Assembly (NCBI GenBank): GCA_947503765.1
Contig: CANNFA010000002.1
Location: 244,501 to 308,500, forward strand
Length of the DNA stretch: 64,000 nt
Direction of reading: 5' to 3'
Origin: an uncultured Paracoccaceae bacterium
Lineage (GTDB): Bacteria > Pseudomonadota > Alphaproteobacteria > Rhodobacterales > Rhodobacteraceae
A program made the position numbers and the translations under genes. The notes under the pieces were generated by a model. It saw nothing but the letters and a program-made list of their open reading frames with translations, searched no databases and was not told the origin of the DNA. How positions within the stretch are numbered: position 1 is the first letter of the stretch; each line of letters starts with the position of its first letter. This document shows positions 2,797-56,125 of the stretch, one piece after another.

Positions 2797-3699
2797 TCAG
2801 GCGGTCAGCCCCTCGGGCTCCGGCAGGCCGTTCGCGCGGCAGCAGGCGGTCACGGTGTTGGCCAGCAGGCAGGCAATGGTCATCGGCCCGACCCCGCCGG
2901 GAACCGGGGTGATCGCGCCGGCGACCTGGGCCGCGCCGTCGAAATCCACGTCGCCGACCAGCCGGGTCTTGCCCTCGCCCTTTTCCGGGGCGGGCACGCG
3001 GTTGATGCCCACGTCGATCACCGTCGCGCCCGGTTTGACCCAGTCACCGGGGATCATCGCCGGCCGGCCCACCGCCGCCACCAGGATGTCGGCGCCGCGG
3101 CAGACCTCGGGCAGGTCGCGGGTGCGGCTGTGGGCGATGGTCACGGTGCAGCTGTCGCCCAGCAGAAGCTGCGCCATCGGTTTCCCGACGATGTTGGACC
3201 GTCCCACGACCACCGCATTCAGGCCGGACAGGTCGCCAAGCTGATCGCGCAGCATCATCAGGCAGCCGAGCGGCGTGCAGGGCACCATGCTTTTCTGGCC
3301 GGTGCCCAGCAGCCCGACATTCAGGATGTGAAACCCGTCCACGTCCTTGGCCGGGGAAATCGCGTTGAGCACAAGATCGCTGTCGATGTGATCGGGCAGC
3401 GGCAGTTGCACGAGGATGCCGTGCACCGCCGGATCGTCGTTCAGCCGGTCGATCAGCGCCAGCAGGTCGGCCTGCGGCGTGTCCACCGGCAGCTTGTGCT
3501 CGAAGCTCTGCATCCCGGCCTCGGCGGTCTGGCGGCCCTTGTTGCGCACGTAGACCTGGCTTGCGGGATCCTCGCCCACCAGCACCACGGCAAGGCCGGG
3601 CGTGATGCCGTGGCCCCGCTTCAGCCGCCCGACCTCGTCCGCGACCTTGCCGCGCACGGTTTCCGCGAATGCCTTGCCGTCGATGATCGTCGCGCCCAT
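2797..3699 (-). CDS. folD: Bifunctional methylene-THF dehydrogenase / methenyl-THF cyclohydrolase
   Basis: FolD interconverts 5,10-methylene-, 5,10-methenyl- and 10-formyl-tetrahydrofolate in the cytosol. From ATG 3699 the product is 300 residues, the usual size. It shows YVRNKGRQ with the catalytic lysine, [16 protein letters not shown], the NADP-binding GRSNIVGKP and the C-terminal [11 protein letters not shown]. The frame is open for 40 more codons upstream (to 3819), but those residues are unlike FolD and run into a structured repeat. ATG 3699 is preceded by AAAGGAA at good distance. A TTGACC..TATCCG pair about 60-70 bases upstream is a weak promoter candidate. folD sits upstream of aroQ. 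Other folate and glycine genes in the window (5-FCL, glyA, gcvTHP) use its products. Confidence 0.96.
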
Positions 3700-3782: not shown

Positions 3783-3895
3783 TATAGCGTGTCGCGGTCT
3801 TTCGGATTCGCAAGTTCATCCGCCGAGCGAGACAGCGTTTTCGAAGAACAACGCGTTCGCCCGGTGGATGAATTCGATTGAACGCGACATGCTCT
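3783..3895 (-). repeat. Structured intergenic repeat, copy A (nested inverted repeats)
   Basis: A roughly 113-bp element with two nested stems. Read on the minus strand it starts AGAGCATGTC and ends GACACGCT. The outer stem pairs 3786-3796 with 3883-3893 (10 of 11). The inner stem pairs 3815-3830 with 3857-3872 (14 of 16), enclosing a loop with a further GCGTT/AACGC pair. It begins 14 bases after the stop of the XRE-cupin gene and lies upstream of folD. It shares six conserved blocks, in the same order and nearly the same spacing, with the element at 51352-51464, while stem sequences differ but still pair. Function is unknown: a REP/MITE-like repeat or a structured RNA or terminator are all possible. 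Confidence 0.75.
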
Positions 3896-3908: not shown

Positions 3909-4556
3909 TCAGTTCTCTTGCGGGTAGGTGATCACCGACAGGTACCGTGCCGGAAGCTGCACCAGCGCCTCGGGGCCGTGTGGCGCATCGGAATCGAAGA
4001 TCAGCGAATCGCCCGGCTCCAGCGTGTAGGTCCGGCTGCCGTGGCGATAGTCGATGCGCCCGTCGAGCATGTACAGGAACTCGATGCCCGCATGCTGGAA
4101 GGTCGGAAAGCGGTCGGTCTGGTCGGTCAGCGTGATCAGGTACGGCTCCACCACCACGCCCGATGCGTTCGAGCCGATATGGCCAAGCAGGTTGTACTGG
4201 TGCCCGGCGCGGGTGCCGGCGCGGTCGATCGGCGCCCCCGTGCCTGCCTTGACGTGCATCGCGCCGCGTTCCTCGGCGAAGCCGGCGAACAATTGCACGA
4301 ACGGCACTCGCAACGCGTCGGCCAGCGCCTGCAACGTGCTGAGCGACGCAGACATGTGGCCGTTCTCGATCTTCGACAACGAGCCGACGGACAGATCCGC
4401 AAGCGCCGCAAGATCCGCCCCCGTCATCCGCTGGTGCAGGCGCAATGCACGGACCTGCCGGCCGATCGCCATTTCAAGGTTGTTGTCGCGGAATTCCGGG
4501 ACCGCGTGGGGATCCTGTTTCAGGTCCGTCTCGGACGGTGTCGCCTTGGCGGCCAT
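3909..4556 (-). CDS. XRE-family transcriptional regulator with C-terminal cupin domain
   Basis: A 215-residue cytosolic DNA-binding regulator. Residues about 28-85 form an XRE/Cro helix-turn-helix ([19 protein letters not shown], then [21 protein letters not shown]). Residues about 140-205 form a small cupin ([31 protein letters not shown]) of the kind that senses a small ligand. Start 4556 is chosen because AGAGG stands about 8 bases upstream and the residues after it match family N termini. The frame stays open far upstream through the kinase gene, but that part is only antisense coding shadow. Regulators of this class usually control adjacent amine or amino-acid catabolism genes; the minus-strand kinase just upstream is the obvious partner, by inference. 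Confidence 0.92.
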
Positions 4557-50838: not shown

Positions 50839-51279
50839 TCAGGCCACGCGGTCGCCGCGCGCGAAAGCCTCGATCTGCGCGGCGGGGCGTGCGCCCGCCA
50901 GGCGCGCCGCCTCGCGGCCGCCGCGGAACGCGATCAGCGCCGGAATGCCGCGGATGTTGAAGCGCACGGTGGCATCGGGGTTGGCCATCGTGTCGACCTT
51001 GGCAAAGCGGATCGCGGGGGCCGATGCCTGCGCGGCCTTGGCGAATTCCGGCGCCATCATCCGGCAGGGGCCGCACCAATCGGCCCAGAAATCCACGATC
51101 AGCGGCAGATCGTCGGTTTTCGCCGCTTTTTCCAGCGTCGCAAGGTCGATCTCGTGCACCTTGCCCGAGACCAGTCTGGTCCCGCAGACCCCGCATTTCG
51201 GCCCTTTGCCCAGCTTGTCGGACGGCACCCGGTTGGCCGATCCGCAGTCGAGGCAGATGAGTTTCGTCTGGCCGGACAT
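50839..51279 (-). CDS. trxC: Thioredoxin TrxC (thioredoxin 2 with zinc finger)
   Basis: A 146-residue cytosolic disulphide reductase. The N-terminal zinc finger has Cys9, Cys12, Cys29 and Cys32 (ICLDCGSANRVPSD..KCGVCG), the mark of thioredoxin 2. The thioredoxin fold carries the active site WCGPC at residues 68-72 and the cis-proline in RGIPALIAF. E. coli TrxC is induced by oxidative stress through OxyR. ATG 51279 is preferred to 51303 because it directly precedes the zinc finger. A large palindromic repeat lies upstream (51352-51464). Confidence 0.95.
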   Translation of the reverse strand: MSGQTKLICLDCGSANRVPSDKLGKGPKCGVCGTRLVSGKVHEIDLATLEKAAKTDDLPLIVDFWADWCGPCRMMAPEFAKAAQASAPAIRFAKVDTMANPDATVRFNIRGIPALIAFRGGREAARLAGARPAAQIEAFARGDRVA

Positions 51280-51351: not shown

Positions 51352-51464
51352 AGAGCATGTCTTGCCAAATTGAATTCTCGTGCCCGCCCGAACGCATTTG
51401 CGTCGCAAACGCTGCCTCGGTCGGGCACGAGAATACGGCTCGTCTTACTGGCAAGACACGCTCT
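51352..51464 (+). repeat. Structured intergenic repeat, copy B (nested inverted repeats)
   Basis: A 113-bp element with two long stems. The outer arms 51352-51367 and 51449-51464 pair at 15 of 16 positions (AGAGC, then GTCTTGCCA). The inner arms 51374-51391 and 51417-51434 pair at 17 of 18 (ATTCTCGTGCCCG core). The loop holds ACGCATTTGCGT. It fills the gap between gcvP and trxC and covers the last base pairs of the gcvP stop. It shares the blocks AGAGCATGTC, GAATTC, CGAACGC, AAACGCTG, CTCG and GACACGCT, in order, with copy A at 3783-3895. Confidence 0.85.
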
Positions 51465-54312
51465 ATTCCGCCGCTTCGGCGTAAGCCTCCAGCGGCGGGC
51501 AGGTGCAGATCAGATGCCGATCGCCATACACGTTGTCCACCCGGTTCACCGGCGGCCAGTACTTGTCCACCCGGAACGCACCGGCCGGGAAGCATCCGGC
51601 CTCGCGGCTGTAGGGCCGGTCCCAGTCGCCCACCAGATCCTCGACCGTGTGGGGGGCGTGTTTCAGCGGGTTGTTCTCGGCGTCCATCTCGCCCGAGGCG
51701 ACCGCGTCGATCTCGGCCCGGATCGCCAGCATCGCGTCGCAGAACCGGTCCAGCTCGGCCTTGGTCTCGCTCTCGGTCGGCTCCACCATCAGCGTGCCTG
51801 CAACCGGAAAGGACATCGTGGGCGCGTGAAACCCGTTGTCGATCAGCCGCTTGGCGACGTCATCCACGGTGATCCCGGCCAGTTTCTCGAACGGGCGGGT
51901 GTCGAGGATGCATTCATGCGCCACCCGGTTCCCGCGCCCCTTGAACAGCACGTCATAGGCGCCTTCCAGCCGCTTGGCGATGTAGTTGGCGTTCAAGATC
52001 GCGACCCGCGTCGCCTGCGTCAGCCCTTCGCCGCCCATCATCAGGATATAGGCCCAGGAAATCGGCAGGATCATCGGCGAGCCGTAGGGCGCGGCGGAAA
52101 CCGGCCCCTCGGTGCCGCCGCTATGCGGATGGCCGGGCAGGTGCGGCGCCAGGTGCGCCTTGACCCCGATCGGTCCCATGCCGGGGCCGCCGCCGCCATG
52201 CGGGATGCAGAAGGTCTTGTGCAGGTTCAGGTGGCTCACATCGGCGCCCAGATCGCCCGGACGCGCCAGCCCGACCAGCGCGTTGAGGTTGGCGCCGTCC
52301 AGATAGACCTGCCCGCCGTGGCGATGCGTGATATCGCAGACCTCGCGCACGGTTTCCTCGAACACGCCGTGGGTGGACGGATAGGTGATCATGCAGGCGG
52401 CCAGCGCGTCGCCCGCCGCCTCGGCCTTGGCGCGGAAGTCTTCCACGTCGATATCGCCGTTCTCGGCCGATTTGACCACCACCACGTCCATTCCCGCCAT
52501 CTGCGCCGAGGCCGGGTTCGTGCCATGCGCCGAGGTCGGGATCAGGCAGATCCTGCGCCCGGTATCGCCCTGCGCGCGGTGATAGGCGGCAATCGTCAAC
52601 AGTCCGGCAAATTCACCCTGCGCGCCGGAATTGGGCTGCATCGACATCGCGTCATAGCCGGTGATGCTGCACAGCTTGGCCGACAGGTCGTCGAGAAGCT
52701 GCCGGTATCCCTGCACCTGATCCTCGGGGGCGAAGGGGTGGATGTTCGAGAATTCCGGCCAGGTGACCGGCATCATTTCCGCCGCCGCGTTCAGCTTCAT
52801 CGTGCACGACCCCAGCGGGATCATCGCGCGGTCCAGCGCCAGGTCGCGGTCTGCGAGGCGGCGCATGTAGCGCATCATCTCGGTCTCGGCGCGGTTCATC
52901 TGGAACACCGGGTGGGTCAGGTATTCCGATTGCCGCAGCATCGCTTCGGGGATGCGGATGTCGCGCGCCGCATCGCCATACTCCGCCTCGATCCCGAAGG
53001 CGCGCCACAGCCGTTCCACTGCATCCACCCGCGTCGTCTCGTCCAGCGCGATGCCCAGCTTGGTCGTGCCGATCCGGCGCAGGTTGATCCGCTCTGCCCG
53101 CGCGGCGCGCAGGATCGCGCCCTGAAGCGGGCCGACCTCGACCGTGATGGTGTCGAAGAACGCTTCCGGCTCCACGGCAAAGCCCGCCGCCGACAGGACC
53201 TCCGCCACGCGAACGGCCTTGCGGTGGATGCCCTCGGCGATCGCGCGCAGGCCCACCGGCCCGTGGAACACCGCGTAGAACGACGCCATCACCGCCAGCA
53301 ACGCCTGCGCGGTGCACACGTTCGATGTCGCCTTTTCGCGGCGGATATGCTGCTCGCGGGTCTGCAGCGCCAGCCGGAACGCCTGGTTGCCGCGCGCGTC
53401 GATCGACACGCCGACCAGCCGGCCCGGCATCGAGCGCTTGTAGGCGTCGCGGCAGGCCATGTAGGCGGCATGCGGGCCGCCATAGCCCATCGGCACGCCG
53501 AACCGCTGGGTCGAGCCGACGGCGATGTCGGCGCCCATCGCGCCGGGTTCCTTCAGCACCGTCAGCGCCAGCGGGTCGGCGATCACGACGCCCAGCGCCT
53601 TCTGCGCGTGCAGCGCGTCGATCTGGGCGGTGAAATCGCGGACATCGCCGAACGTGCCTGGATACTGGAACGCGGCGCCGAACAGACCCTCTTCGGGCAT
53701 GTCCTCGGGCGCGCCCACGATCACCTTGATCCCCAGCGGTTCGGCGCGGGTCTGCATCACGGCGATATTCTGCGGGTGGCAATTCTCGTCGATGAAGAAG
53801 CCCACTGCCTTGGTCTTCGCCACCCGCTGCGCCATCGCCATCGCCTCGGCGGCGGCGGTGGCCTCGTCCAGCAGCGAGGCGTTGGCGATGTCCAGCCCGG
53901 TCAGGTCGCAGATCATCGTCTGGTAGTTCAGCAGCGCCTCCAGCCGGCCCTGGCTGATTTCCGGCTGATACGGCGTATAGGCCGTGTACCAGGCCGGGTT
54001 TTCCAAAATGTACCGCTGAATCGCGGGCGGCGTGACCGTCCCGTGATAGCCCTGCCCGATCATCGTGGTGAACACCTGGTTCTTCTGCGCGCATTGCCGC
54101 ATGAACCAGATCAGCTCGCGCTCCGACTTGGCGGGACCGAAATCCAGCGGCTCGGCCTGCCGGATGGATTTCGGCACCGTCTCTTCGATCAGCGCATCAA
54201 GGCTGCCTGCGCCGACGACCTCCAGCATGGCGGCCATTTCCTCGGGAGAGGGGCCGATATGGCGGCGGTTGGCGAAATCGTGCGGTTCGTAATCGGACGA
54301 GGAAAAGGGCAT
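51463..54312 (-). CDS. gcvP: Glycine dehydrogenase (decarboxylating), P-protein
   Basis: GcvP decarboxylates glycine and passes the aminomethyl group to the lipoyl arm of GcvH. The 949-residue product is the single-chain form, with both alpha-like (1-450) and beta-like (450-949) halves. Landmarks are [14 protein letters not shown] near the start, [29 protein letters not shown], the glycine-rich [13 protein letters not shown] and the PLP-lysine in [18 protein letters not shown] 54312 has a weak ribosome site, but the conserved N terminus fits. It is the third gene of the riboswitch-controlled gcvT-gcvH-gcvP operon, 67 bases after gcvH. Confidence 0.97.
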
Positions 54313-54756: not shown

Positions 54757-55887
54757 TCATTTCCTGTAGCCGGCTTCGCGGAACGGCATTGCCGCAACGC
54801 GGGCGGGCAGTCTTTTTCCGCGCACCTCGCCGTAAAGCACCGTGCCTTCCGCCGCGTGGCCGGCATCGACATAGGCCATCGAGATCGGCGCCTCGACCGA
54901 GGGGCCGTAAGCGCCCGATGTCACCTCGCCGATGGGCGCGCCGCCCTCGGCACCGGCATGGATCGGGGTGCCGGGGCGCATCGGTGCGCGCCCCTCCGGG
55001 CGCAGCCCGATCCGGCGCCGCGCGGTGCCGTCTTCCATTTCTGAAAGGATCTTCTCCGCGCCCGGAAAGCCGCCTTCGCGCGCGCCGCCGCGTCGCCGCG
55101 CCTTCTGGATCGCCCAGCCGAGCCCGGCCGCGATGGGGCTTGTCTCGGGGCCAAGATCGCTGCCGTAAAGGCACAGACCCGCCTCCAGCCGTAGCGAATC
55201 GCGCGCGCCCAGACCGATCGGTGCCACGGCATCGTCGGCCAGCAGGGCGCGGGCGAAATCCGCCGCGCGGTCCTCGGGCACCGAAATCTCGAACCCGTCC
55301 TCGCCGGTATAGCCCGACCGCGACAGCCACAGATCGCCGTGATCGGACGCCACAACCGCCACGTCCATGAACCGCATGTCCGCCGCCTCGGGCACTAGCG
55401 CGGCCAGCACCCGCTCGGCCTCGGGCCCCTGAAGCGCCAGAAGCGCGCGGTCCGTCACCTCCTCGACGGCGCAGGTGGCGGCAAGATGCGCGCGCATATG
55501 GGCAAGATCGGCCGCCTTGCAGGCCGCGTTGGTGACGGTGAACAGGTGATCGCCCCGGTTCGCCACCATCAGGTCGTCAAGGATGCCGCCCGCGTCGTTG
55601 GTGAAGAACGTGTAGCGCTGCCGCCCTTCCTTCAGCGCCAGCAGATCCTGCGGCACCAGCGTCTCGAACGCCTCGGCCGCGACGGCGATGCCGCCCTGCA
55701 GCGGCCGGATGAGCACCTGACCCATATGGCTGACATCGAACAGCCCGGCCGCGGCGCGGCAATGCAGATGTTCCTTGAGCACGCCCATCGGGTATTGCAC
55801 CGGCATCTCGTAGCCGGCGAAGGGCACCATCTTTGCCCCCAATTCGACGTGCAGATCGTAAAGACAGGTCCGTTCCAGATCGGCCAT
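54757..55887 (-). CDS. gcvT: Aminomethyltransferase, T protein
   Basis: GcvT releases ammonia from the GcvH-bound intermediate and forms 5,10-methylene-THF. The 376-residue product begins [32 protein letters not shown], with [23 protein letters not shown] (catalytic Asp region), [13 protein letters not shown] and [17 protein letters not shown] as family marks. Start 55887 is preferred to 55926 because the family N terminus starts there and a GGGGGG tract lies just ahead. It is the first gene after the tandem glycine riboswitch. Confidence 0.97.
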
Positions 55888-55950
55888 GCCGCCCCCCAAG
55901 CCTCGCCGGACCGAATCCGGCACCATGCCGGGCGCTTCGCCGCCCGAACG

Positions 55951-56125
55951 ATGCCCCCTCTGTCCGTCCGCCTGAGATCGTTATCCCTTCGGCGCCCCGG
56001 ATCAAGCCGGGATCTCTCCAGAGTCCGTCACCGACGCCAGGTCCCTTGTGCCTGAGAGTTTACCGGGGCGGTTGCTCCTTCGGCACCGGCATGGGCCGGA
56101 TTCTCCCTGGCTCGGCCCCGCAACG
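55951..56125 (-). promoter_or_regulatory. Tandem glycine riboswitch upstream of gcvT
   Basis: On the minus strand two glycine aptamers lie in series. The first contains GGGAGAATCCGG, then GCCGAAGGAGCAA and AACTCTCAGGCA. The second contains GACTCTGGAGAG, then GCCGAAGGGATAACG and ATCTCAGGCGGACAGAGG. These are the conserved cores of the gcvT RNA element. The gcvT start is about 64 bases downstream. In known cases glycine binding turns the glycine cleavage operon on; direction here is inferred. Confidence 0.93.

Follow-up and report, generated by a model that had tools for sequence, protein, structure and literature searches.

The short intergenic region between folD and an XRE-cupin regulator gene, near the start of the 64,000-nucleotide stretch of DNA analysed here (the window), carries a structured sequence of about 110 bp that recurs, with different stems and the same short blocks, in a second intergenic region further along. 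This raises the question of what kind of sequence the two copies represent and how they came to be there. The preliminary description offered an undescribed REP/MITE or RNA family. The repeat or MITE part of this proposal was borne out by a multicopy and patchy occurrence, by a TA duplication at one site and by the placement of 0 of 146 copies in genes; the REP part and, for the dispersed copies, the RNA part were not. With a probability of about 0.85, we consider the family to consist of non-autonomous, MITE-like (ERIC-like) intergenic elements of about 110 bp which insert at TA, rebuild stop codons and are moved in trans.

Anatomy and context of the two copies

Both copies were recovered where they had first been placed, on the minus strand near 3783-3895 (copy A) and on the plus strand near 51352-51464 (copy B), with the conserved blocks in the order originally given. 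Their nearly equal spacing mostly held as well, except that CGAACGC and AAACGCTG, given as 10-11 nt apart, are separated by 12 nt in copy A (11 nt in copy B). The outer and inner stems had been described correctly: their sequences differ between the copies and pairing is retained. RNA folding z-scores were -4.3 for copy A and -8.2 for copy B, and none of 200 shuffles of either folded as well. Out of 29 strong copies in the genome to which the window belongs (hereafter the source genome), A and B are the only ones inside the window. Their boundaries, listed below together with the neighbouring genes, were derived by analogy from the empty site known for a different copy, L154.

3785..3894, minus strand: copy A, element proper, about 110 bp, GAGCATGTCGCG...CGCGACACGCTA (sequence; borders by analogy with the L154 empty site)
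3783..3784, no strand: TA at the 3' border of copy A (sequence; TA duplication observed for another copy)
3828..3859, minus strand: asymmetric core hairpin of copy A, CGAACGC...GCTGTCTCG (sequence and alignments)
2797..3699, minus strand: folD, the gene downstream of copy A (Pfam matches to THF_DHG_CYH and its C-terminal domain)
3909..4556, minus strand: XRE-cupin regulator gene, upstream neighbour of copy A (Pfam HTH_3, Cupin_2)
51353..51463, plus strand: copy B, element proper, 111 bp, GAGCATGTCTTG...CAAGACACGCTC (sequence and alignment)
51389..51419, plus strand: asymmetric core hairpin of copy B, CGAACGC...GCTGCCTCG (sequence)
50839..51279, minus strand: trxC-like thioredoxin gene, the other neighbour of copy B (Pfam Thioredoxin, Zn_ribbon_Thio2)
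51463..51465, minus strand: gcvP stop codon TAG, made up of the border TA and the terminal base of copy B (gene call and sequence)
51463..54312, minus strand: gcvP (glycine dehydrogenase), whose stop abuts copy B (Pfam GDC-P, 9.7e-187)

Copy A is co-directional with both of its neighbours; no called stop codon was found at either of its ends, and the dinucleotide at its 5' border is CA, perhaps a TA that has decayed. Copy B has the opposite orientation to its neighbours, the thioredoxin gene and gcvP, and the stop codon of the latter takes its last base from the end of the element. The orthologous intergenic region in a genome of the same genus (G001) is without the element; it was rejected as a base-exact empty site on account of its divergence. 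As regards copy A, its flanks match separate places in three same-genus genomes (G001, G002, G004), and a fourth (G003) gave a match to one flank only. The gcvP gene ending at copy B is part of a cluster with gcvT (54757-55926), just upstream of which a glycine riboswitch was detected (Rfam RF00504, 61.6 bits; window positions 56029-56118, minus strand).

A patchily distributed family of elements

An exact search of the 3.98 Mb source genome (G000) gave three matches to AGAGCATGTC-N-GAATTC-N-CGAACGC and none to the reversed control pattern. A covariance model built from these three copies, with which 150 of 378 first-look candidates were scored, returned 54 matches in that genome at E<=10 and 30 at E<1.2e-6; the latter correspond to 29 distinct copies, one match being the antisense reading of another. 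The preliminary description had made the existence of a family depend on further copies in related genomes, and model matches were indeed present in 5 of 60 relatives, namely G001, G007, G011, G024 and G032, the first of which belongs to the same genus; three other genomes of that genus gave no match among the candidates scored, at most 57 in each. A wider model found matches in 24 of 245 other genomes of the family and, in a class-wide draw of 386 genomes, in the source genome, in G569 and weakly in G045. All copy numbers in these three sets are lower bounds, since the candidates scored per genome were limited to at most 57 (relatives), 14 (family set) and 9 (class-wide draw) and weak copies may be missed.

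In species genomes, the exact core pattern was found at 108 loci, 100 of which were taken further; because these genome-contig loci were chosen by exact core match, core conservation among them is biased. The carriers among the 80 titles listed (L178-L257) fall into what we take to be the Rhodobacteraceae in the wide sense, together with Roseibium and Labrenzia, and Roseibium marinum alone accounts for dozens of copies. The distribution of the family is patchy. A loose form of the core pattern gave at least 120 matches in viral contigs, which were taken as mostly chance and left unused.

After removal of 9 antisense duplicates from 155 aligned matches, 146 copies were available for comparison, 142 of them with a recognisable core. 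The element is short, multicopy and devoid of a transposase gene. From ends reading G(A/G)GCRTGTC, its roughly 110 bp lead through an outer stem, then a conserved short segment resembling GAATTC, and an inner stem to the core, CGAACGC...GCTGCCTCG, whose asymmetric internal loop gives the element its orientation. Base counts over the 146 copies, with termini placed by an end-finding step that itself scores the motif, revealed GAGC-like terminal inverted repeats at both ends. Among the 142 copies, 77 carry GANTC, the CcrM methylation motif (PMC2229807), in their 3' linker, compared with 7.5% of shuffled linkers; the other 65 are without it there.

The four copies in which the core was not recognised are L132 and three from the source genome (L143, L148 and L151, with matches of 89, 67 and 64 bp), where internal deletions drop the core and both ends are retained. 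Three copies from Roseibium marinum (L209, L220, L200) contain short tandem duplications of parts of the stem or core.

Insertion at TA and regeneration of stop codons

Base-exact evidence of insertion comes from one site. In G007, the filled locus reads C-TA-GGGCGTGTCGCG...CGCGACATGCTT-TA-GCGCGG and is flanked by convergent genes, a stop codon having been called at either end of the element. Three empty alleles from the same genus as G007, two of them on two contigs of G643 and one in G642, read C-TA-GCG, C-TA-ACG and T-TA-GCG, with flanks 90-92% identical to those of G007. Compared with these three alleles, TA is duplicated on insertion at this locus. The left gene of the empty alleles, as read by eye, ends in frame at the same TAG/TAA, and the stop of the right gene was called in the filled allele only. 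The element was inserted into the shared stop codons of convergent genes, and its end bases regenerate the stops. The two empty versions in G643 may come from two organisms, because this assembly comprises 540 contigs with 5% contamination. Filled and empty alleles occur on plasmids too.

Abutment on stop codons was also frequent in the family at large. With 34 of the 5' ends and 42 of the 3' ends, the terminal TAR falls exactly on the stop codon of an adjacent gene (offset 0), while none of the other offsets printed (within 40 nt) occurs more than 4 times. Altogether, a stop exactly at the terminal TAR was found in 70 of the 146 copies, six of them at both ends, as placed by an end-finding step that scores a YTAR-like motif and slightly favours TAR. 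The stops concerned are TAG in 59 cases, TGA in 9 and TAA in 8. Part of this excess is due to target preference, because YTAR and CTAG sites are often stops themselves: at the same loci, the fraction of sites that are stop codons is 7-9% for intergenic TA, 15-26% for YTAR and 20-50% for CTAG. Set against these backgrounds, 16 of 29 copies in the source genome (p=7e-7 versus YTAR, p=2e-4 versus CTAG) and 42 of 96 database copies (p=8e-12 and p=0.01, respectively) are located at stops. The remaining 13 of the 29, copy A among them, have no stop codon at any terminus.

None of the 146 copies lies inside a called gene, and none overlaps one by more than 45 nt. Among 134 fully classed copies, 59 are placed between convergent, 65 between tandem and 10 between divergent genes, and divergent (promoter) regions are avoided, as 1 of the 29 source-genome copies is found there versus 42% of intergenic bases. 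These assignments rely on a gene caller trained on 14 window genes (13 with Pfam matches, plus gcvP) and, for relatives and database loci, retrained on its own calls. A caller trained on the longest ORFs was dropped, having called opposite-strand frames and put 7 of the 29 copies inside genes.

Candidate mobilisers

No autonomous partner of the element was found among the IS630 and IS5 matches of 11 carrier genomes, which counts against the MITE reading. A possible mobiliser, more doubtful than probable, is an IS5-family transposase (presumably IS427-like) that would recognise GRGCRTGTC-type ends and a YTAR target. The IS5 domain DUF4096 matched in 7 of the 11 carriers, and the IS5-family elements of one of them, G007 (L388/L392/L395/L396, L384), have TA-flanked ends that begin with G at YTAR. 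In G112, moreover, an IS5-family insertion sequence (L380) directly abuts an element copy, the border TA being common to both, and one of its ends agrees with the element end in 10 of 14 bases; however, the other end agrees in 6 of 14, and only 3 of 11 insertion sequence ends compared with the element reach at least 8 of 14. Furthermore, DUF4096 gave no match in the source genome, G032, G642 or G643. The IS5-family elements are a lead only.

IS630 was rejected as mobiliser. Its DDE_3 domain matched in 5 of the 11 carriers and not in the source genome, and the 30 IS630 loci taken from 40 matches yielded only six single end-like matches of two mismatches each.

Related elements at plasmid virB2-virB3 and other sites

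Reading of plasmid records at sequence level revealed eight with the element between virB2 and virB3 (L334-L340, L344) and three with an empty site (L341-L343). Among 40 listed of 116 plasmid records, at least 22 matched in two pieces and were 108 bp shorter than the query stretch (H12-H31, H33, H34); these 22 include the three empty records just mentioned. The plasmids with this site belong to the Roseobacter group, and a Yoonia plasmid (L345) holds an insert of similar length at the same position, without the core and with a different fold.

Eight filled sequences from the plasmid records and three from genome loci, two of which are almost identical, were compared; in these 11 sequences, double changes with retained pairing were seen at 13 of 30 pairs. 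Identity to L334 amounts to 64-90% within the element, compared with 83-96% for the ends of the flanking genes, although coding constraint alone slows the latter. Fold z-scores for seven of the plasmid copies were -3.98, -3.54, -2.94, -2.50, -1.74, -1.31 and 0.03. Another plasmid site, where a helix-turn-helix (mob-type) gene begins, is filled in two records by very different sequences with the same core (L346, L347) and empty in three (L348-L350). Related elements are likewise found in L277 and L226, at a site between what we take to be tolQ and tolR. Folding clearly better than that of shuffles was not seen for L346, L347 or L277 (z of 0.85, -0.40 and -1.45), and a plasmid BLAST search with a source-genome copy matched the core only, in 5 records.

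Because pairing is kept at virB2-virB3 while the sequence turns over, a derived cis-regulatory form is plausible at this site and an RNA role possible; the data fit a domesticated form and do not prove it. A bolder proposal, which we put forward tentatively and with the odds against it, is that the core CGAACGC/GCTGCCTCG (with an AC/UGCC internal loop) serves as a recognition motif and that the mobile element turned, at virB2-virB3, into a structured mRNA switch beside the start codon of the next gene, its stems being kept by compensatory change in place. This might perhaps extend to the plasmid mob-gene site and to tolQ-tolR. If true, the dispersed chromosomal copies would be selfish relatives of a functional, conjugation-linked RNA element. 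The plasmid virB2-virB3 copies make such a possible domestication directly testable.

Covariation of the stems

Covariation of the stems beyond chance, as anticipated from copies A and B, was confirmed: 35 of 44 pairs changed on both sides across 74 copies, and the observed values exceeded all 500 shuffles and every slid control, in an alignment that was fitted to the model and so leans towards structure. The covariation is genuine and mostly lies between subfamilies. It speaks for a structured RNA family, whether a trans-acting sRNA or a cis-regulatory leader, in which each copy is conserved for its function, and so do the double changes kept at virB2-virB3 while the element diverges. In addition, stem sites are less diverged than unpaired sites in 10 of 11 subfamilies (of at least 4 copies each), so that a weak constraint on the stems may remain.

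Against this, the arms of resident copies decay nearly independently. Pairing in the 11 subfamilies ranges from 0.01 below to 0.05 above the prediction for independent decay (for instance, 0.86 versus 0.84 and 0.80 versus 0.78, with the largest gap at 0.82 versus 0.77). The subfamily consensus folds into a nested hairpin with a pairing of 0.92-1.00 that arises by construction, each being scored on its own fold, and does not count as evidence. On the terminal branches of the trees, Watson-Crick pairs changed to G-U 39 times and to A-C 68 times in the inner stem (p=0.007), and 71 and 92 times, respectively, in the outer stem (p=0.12), with ties broken at random since alphabetical tie-breaking favours A-C. 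These counts show no G-U preference on the analysed strand; in raw cell counts, where related copies are not independent, G-U and A-C stood at 56 versus 177, and at 111 versus 233 for both stems. The orientation of copies between tandem genes is even (36 sense versus 29 antisense). Rfam 15 matched only tRNA and the glycine riboswitch in the window and no element, and 12 element-bearing loci gave 9 matches at E<=5, all below the gathering threshold and none relevant. A host-level RNA function of the dispersed copies is not supported by these results, which make an RNA family of this kind unlikely, and pairing seems to be preserved mainly in the copies that spread.

Least probable is a REP/REPIN-type element whose hairpin is recognised on one strand by a RAYT (HUH single-strand) transposase: the conserved asymmetric internal loop of the hairpin is in keeping with it and the predominance of A-C over G-U changes in the inner stem would agree with the other strand being recognised in single-stranded form, but the RAYT domain Y1_Tnp, rejected as mobiliser, is absent from the source genome and matched in only 2 of the 11 carriers (once with an internal stop and once partially), and the TA duplication observed at the empty site is, to our knowledge, not expected of HUH transposition.

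A model for spread and decay

According to the MITE-like reading that we favour, the imperfect inverted-repeat ends G(A/G)GCRTGTC run on into the long outer stem, with the inner stem and the asymmetric core hairpin at the tip, and a transposase supplied in trans would insert the element at YTAR, duplicating TA. The first base of the element is mostly a purine, whichever strand is read, and insertion at the TA of a TAG or TAA therefore rebuilds the stop codon; landing between convergent or tandem genes would thus cost little. Landings in genes and promoter regions would be lost or avoided. Stem pairing may be retained in spreading lineages by selection on pairing during mobilisation, with resident copies left largely to decay. 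The conserved internal core is unusual and speaks against this model, given that a MITE should need its ends only; the lower divergence of stem sites and the 13 source-genome copies with no terminal stop codon count against it as well.

Marine alphaproteobacteria (Rhodobacteraceae in the wide sense, Roseibium/Labrenzia) thereby gain an ERIC-like mobile repeat, with base-exact empty alleles available at one locus, as well as a clear case of insertion into stop codons with restoration of the stop by the inserted element. Furthermore, the family suggests that strong stem covariation in a repeat may have its source in selection on spreading copies and not in RNA function, which calls for caution in covariation-based RNA discovery.

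Comparison with known intergenic repeats

No earlier description of this family was found in the open-access PMC literature, and on that account we regard the family as new, though of a kind already known. The Br-REP1/Br-REP2 repeats of Bradyrhizobium are, like the element, palindromes of Alphaproteobacteria that lie in intergenic regions at gene 3' ends (PMC5082802), and differ from it in their shorter units and in their printed consensus sequences, which lack its core. Bru-RS1/Bru-RS2 of Brucella, palindromic by the title cited in PMC2677664, host insertion sequences and, compared by description, share with the element their alphaproteobacterial hosts and a parallel to the IS5-family insertion sequence that abuts a copy in L380. 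RUP of pneumococcus (107 bp) resembles it by description in size, TA target and non-autonomy; unlike the element, for which none was found, RUP has a candidate transposase partner, IS630-Spn1, with indirect evidence for mobilisation in trans (PMC2229807).

The CcrM-associated intergenic repeats of Caulobacter (CIR) are likewise of about 110 bp, alphaproteobacterial and intergenic, with TA termini; their GANTC motif is present in the linker of 77 of the 142 element copies. As described in the same source (PMC2229807), they consist of two arms and a linker without terminal inverted repeats, whereas the element is a single nested hairpin with terminal pairing. ERIC (IRU/RU-1), a 127-bp enterobacterial repeat, is described in PMC2229807 and PMC10969869. 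The element resembles it in length, in a paired terminal inverted repeat, in TA termini with target duplication, in its intergenic location, in a lineage-dependent copy number and in being non-autonomous. By description, it differs from ERIC in its hosts, in the CGAACGC/GCTGCCTCG core, in the wholesale turnover of its stems and in the abutment on stop codons, which was measured here for the element.
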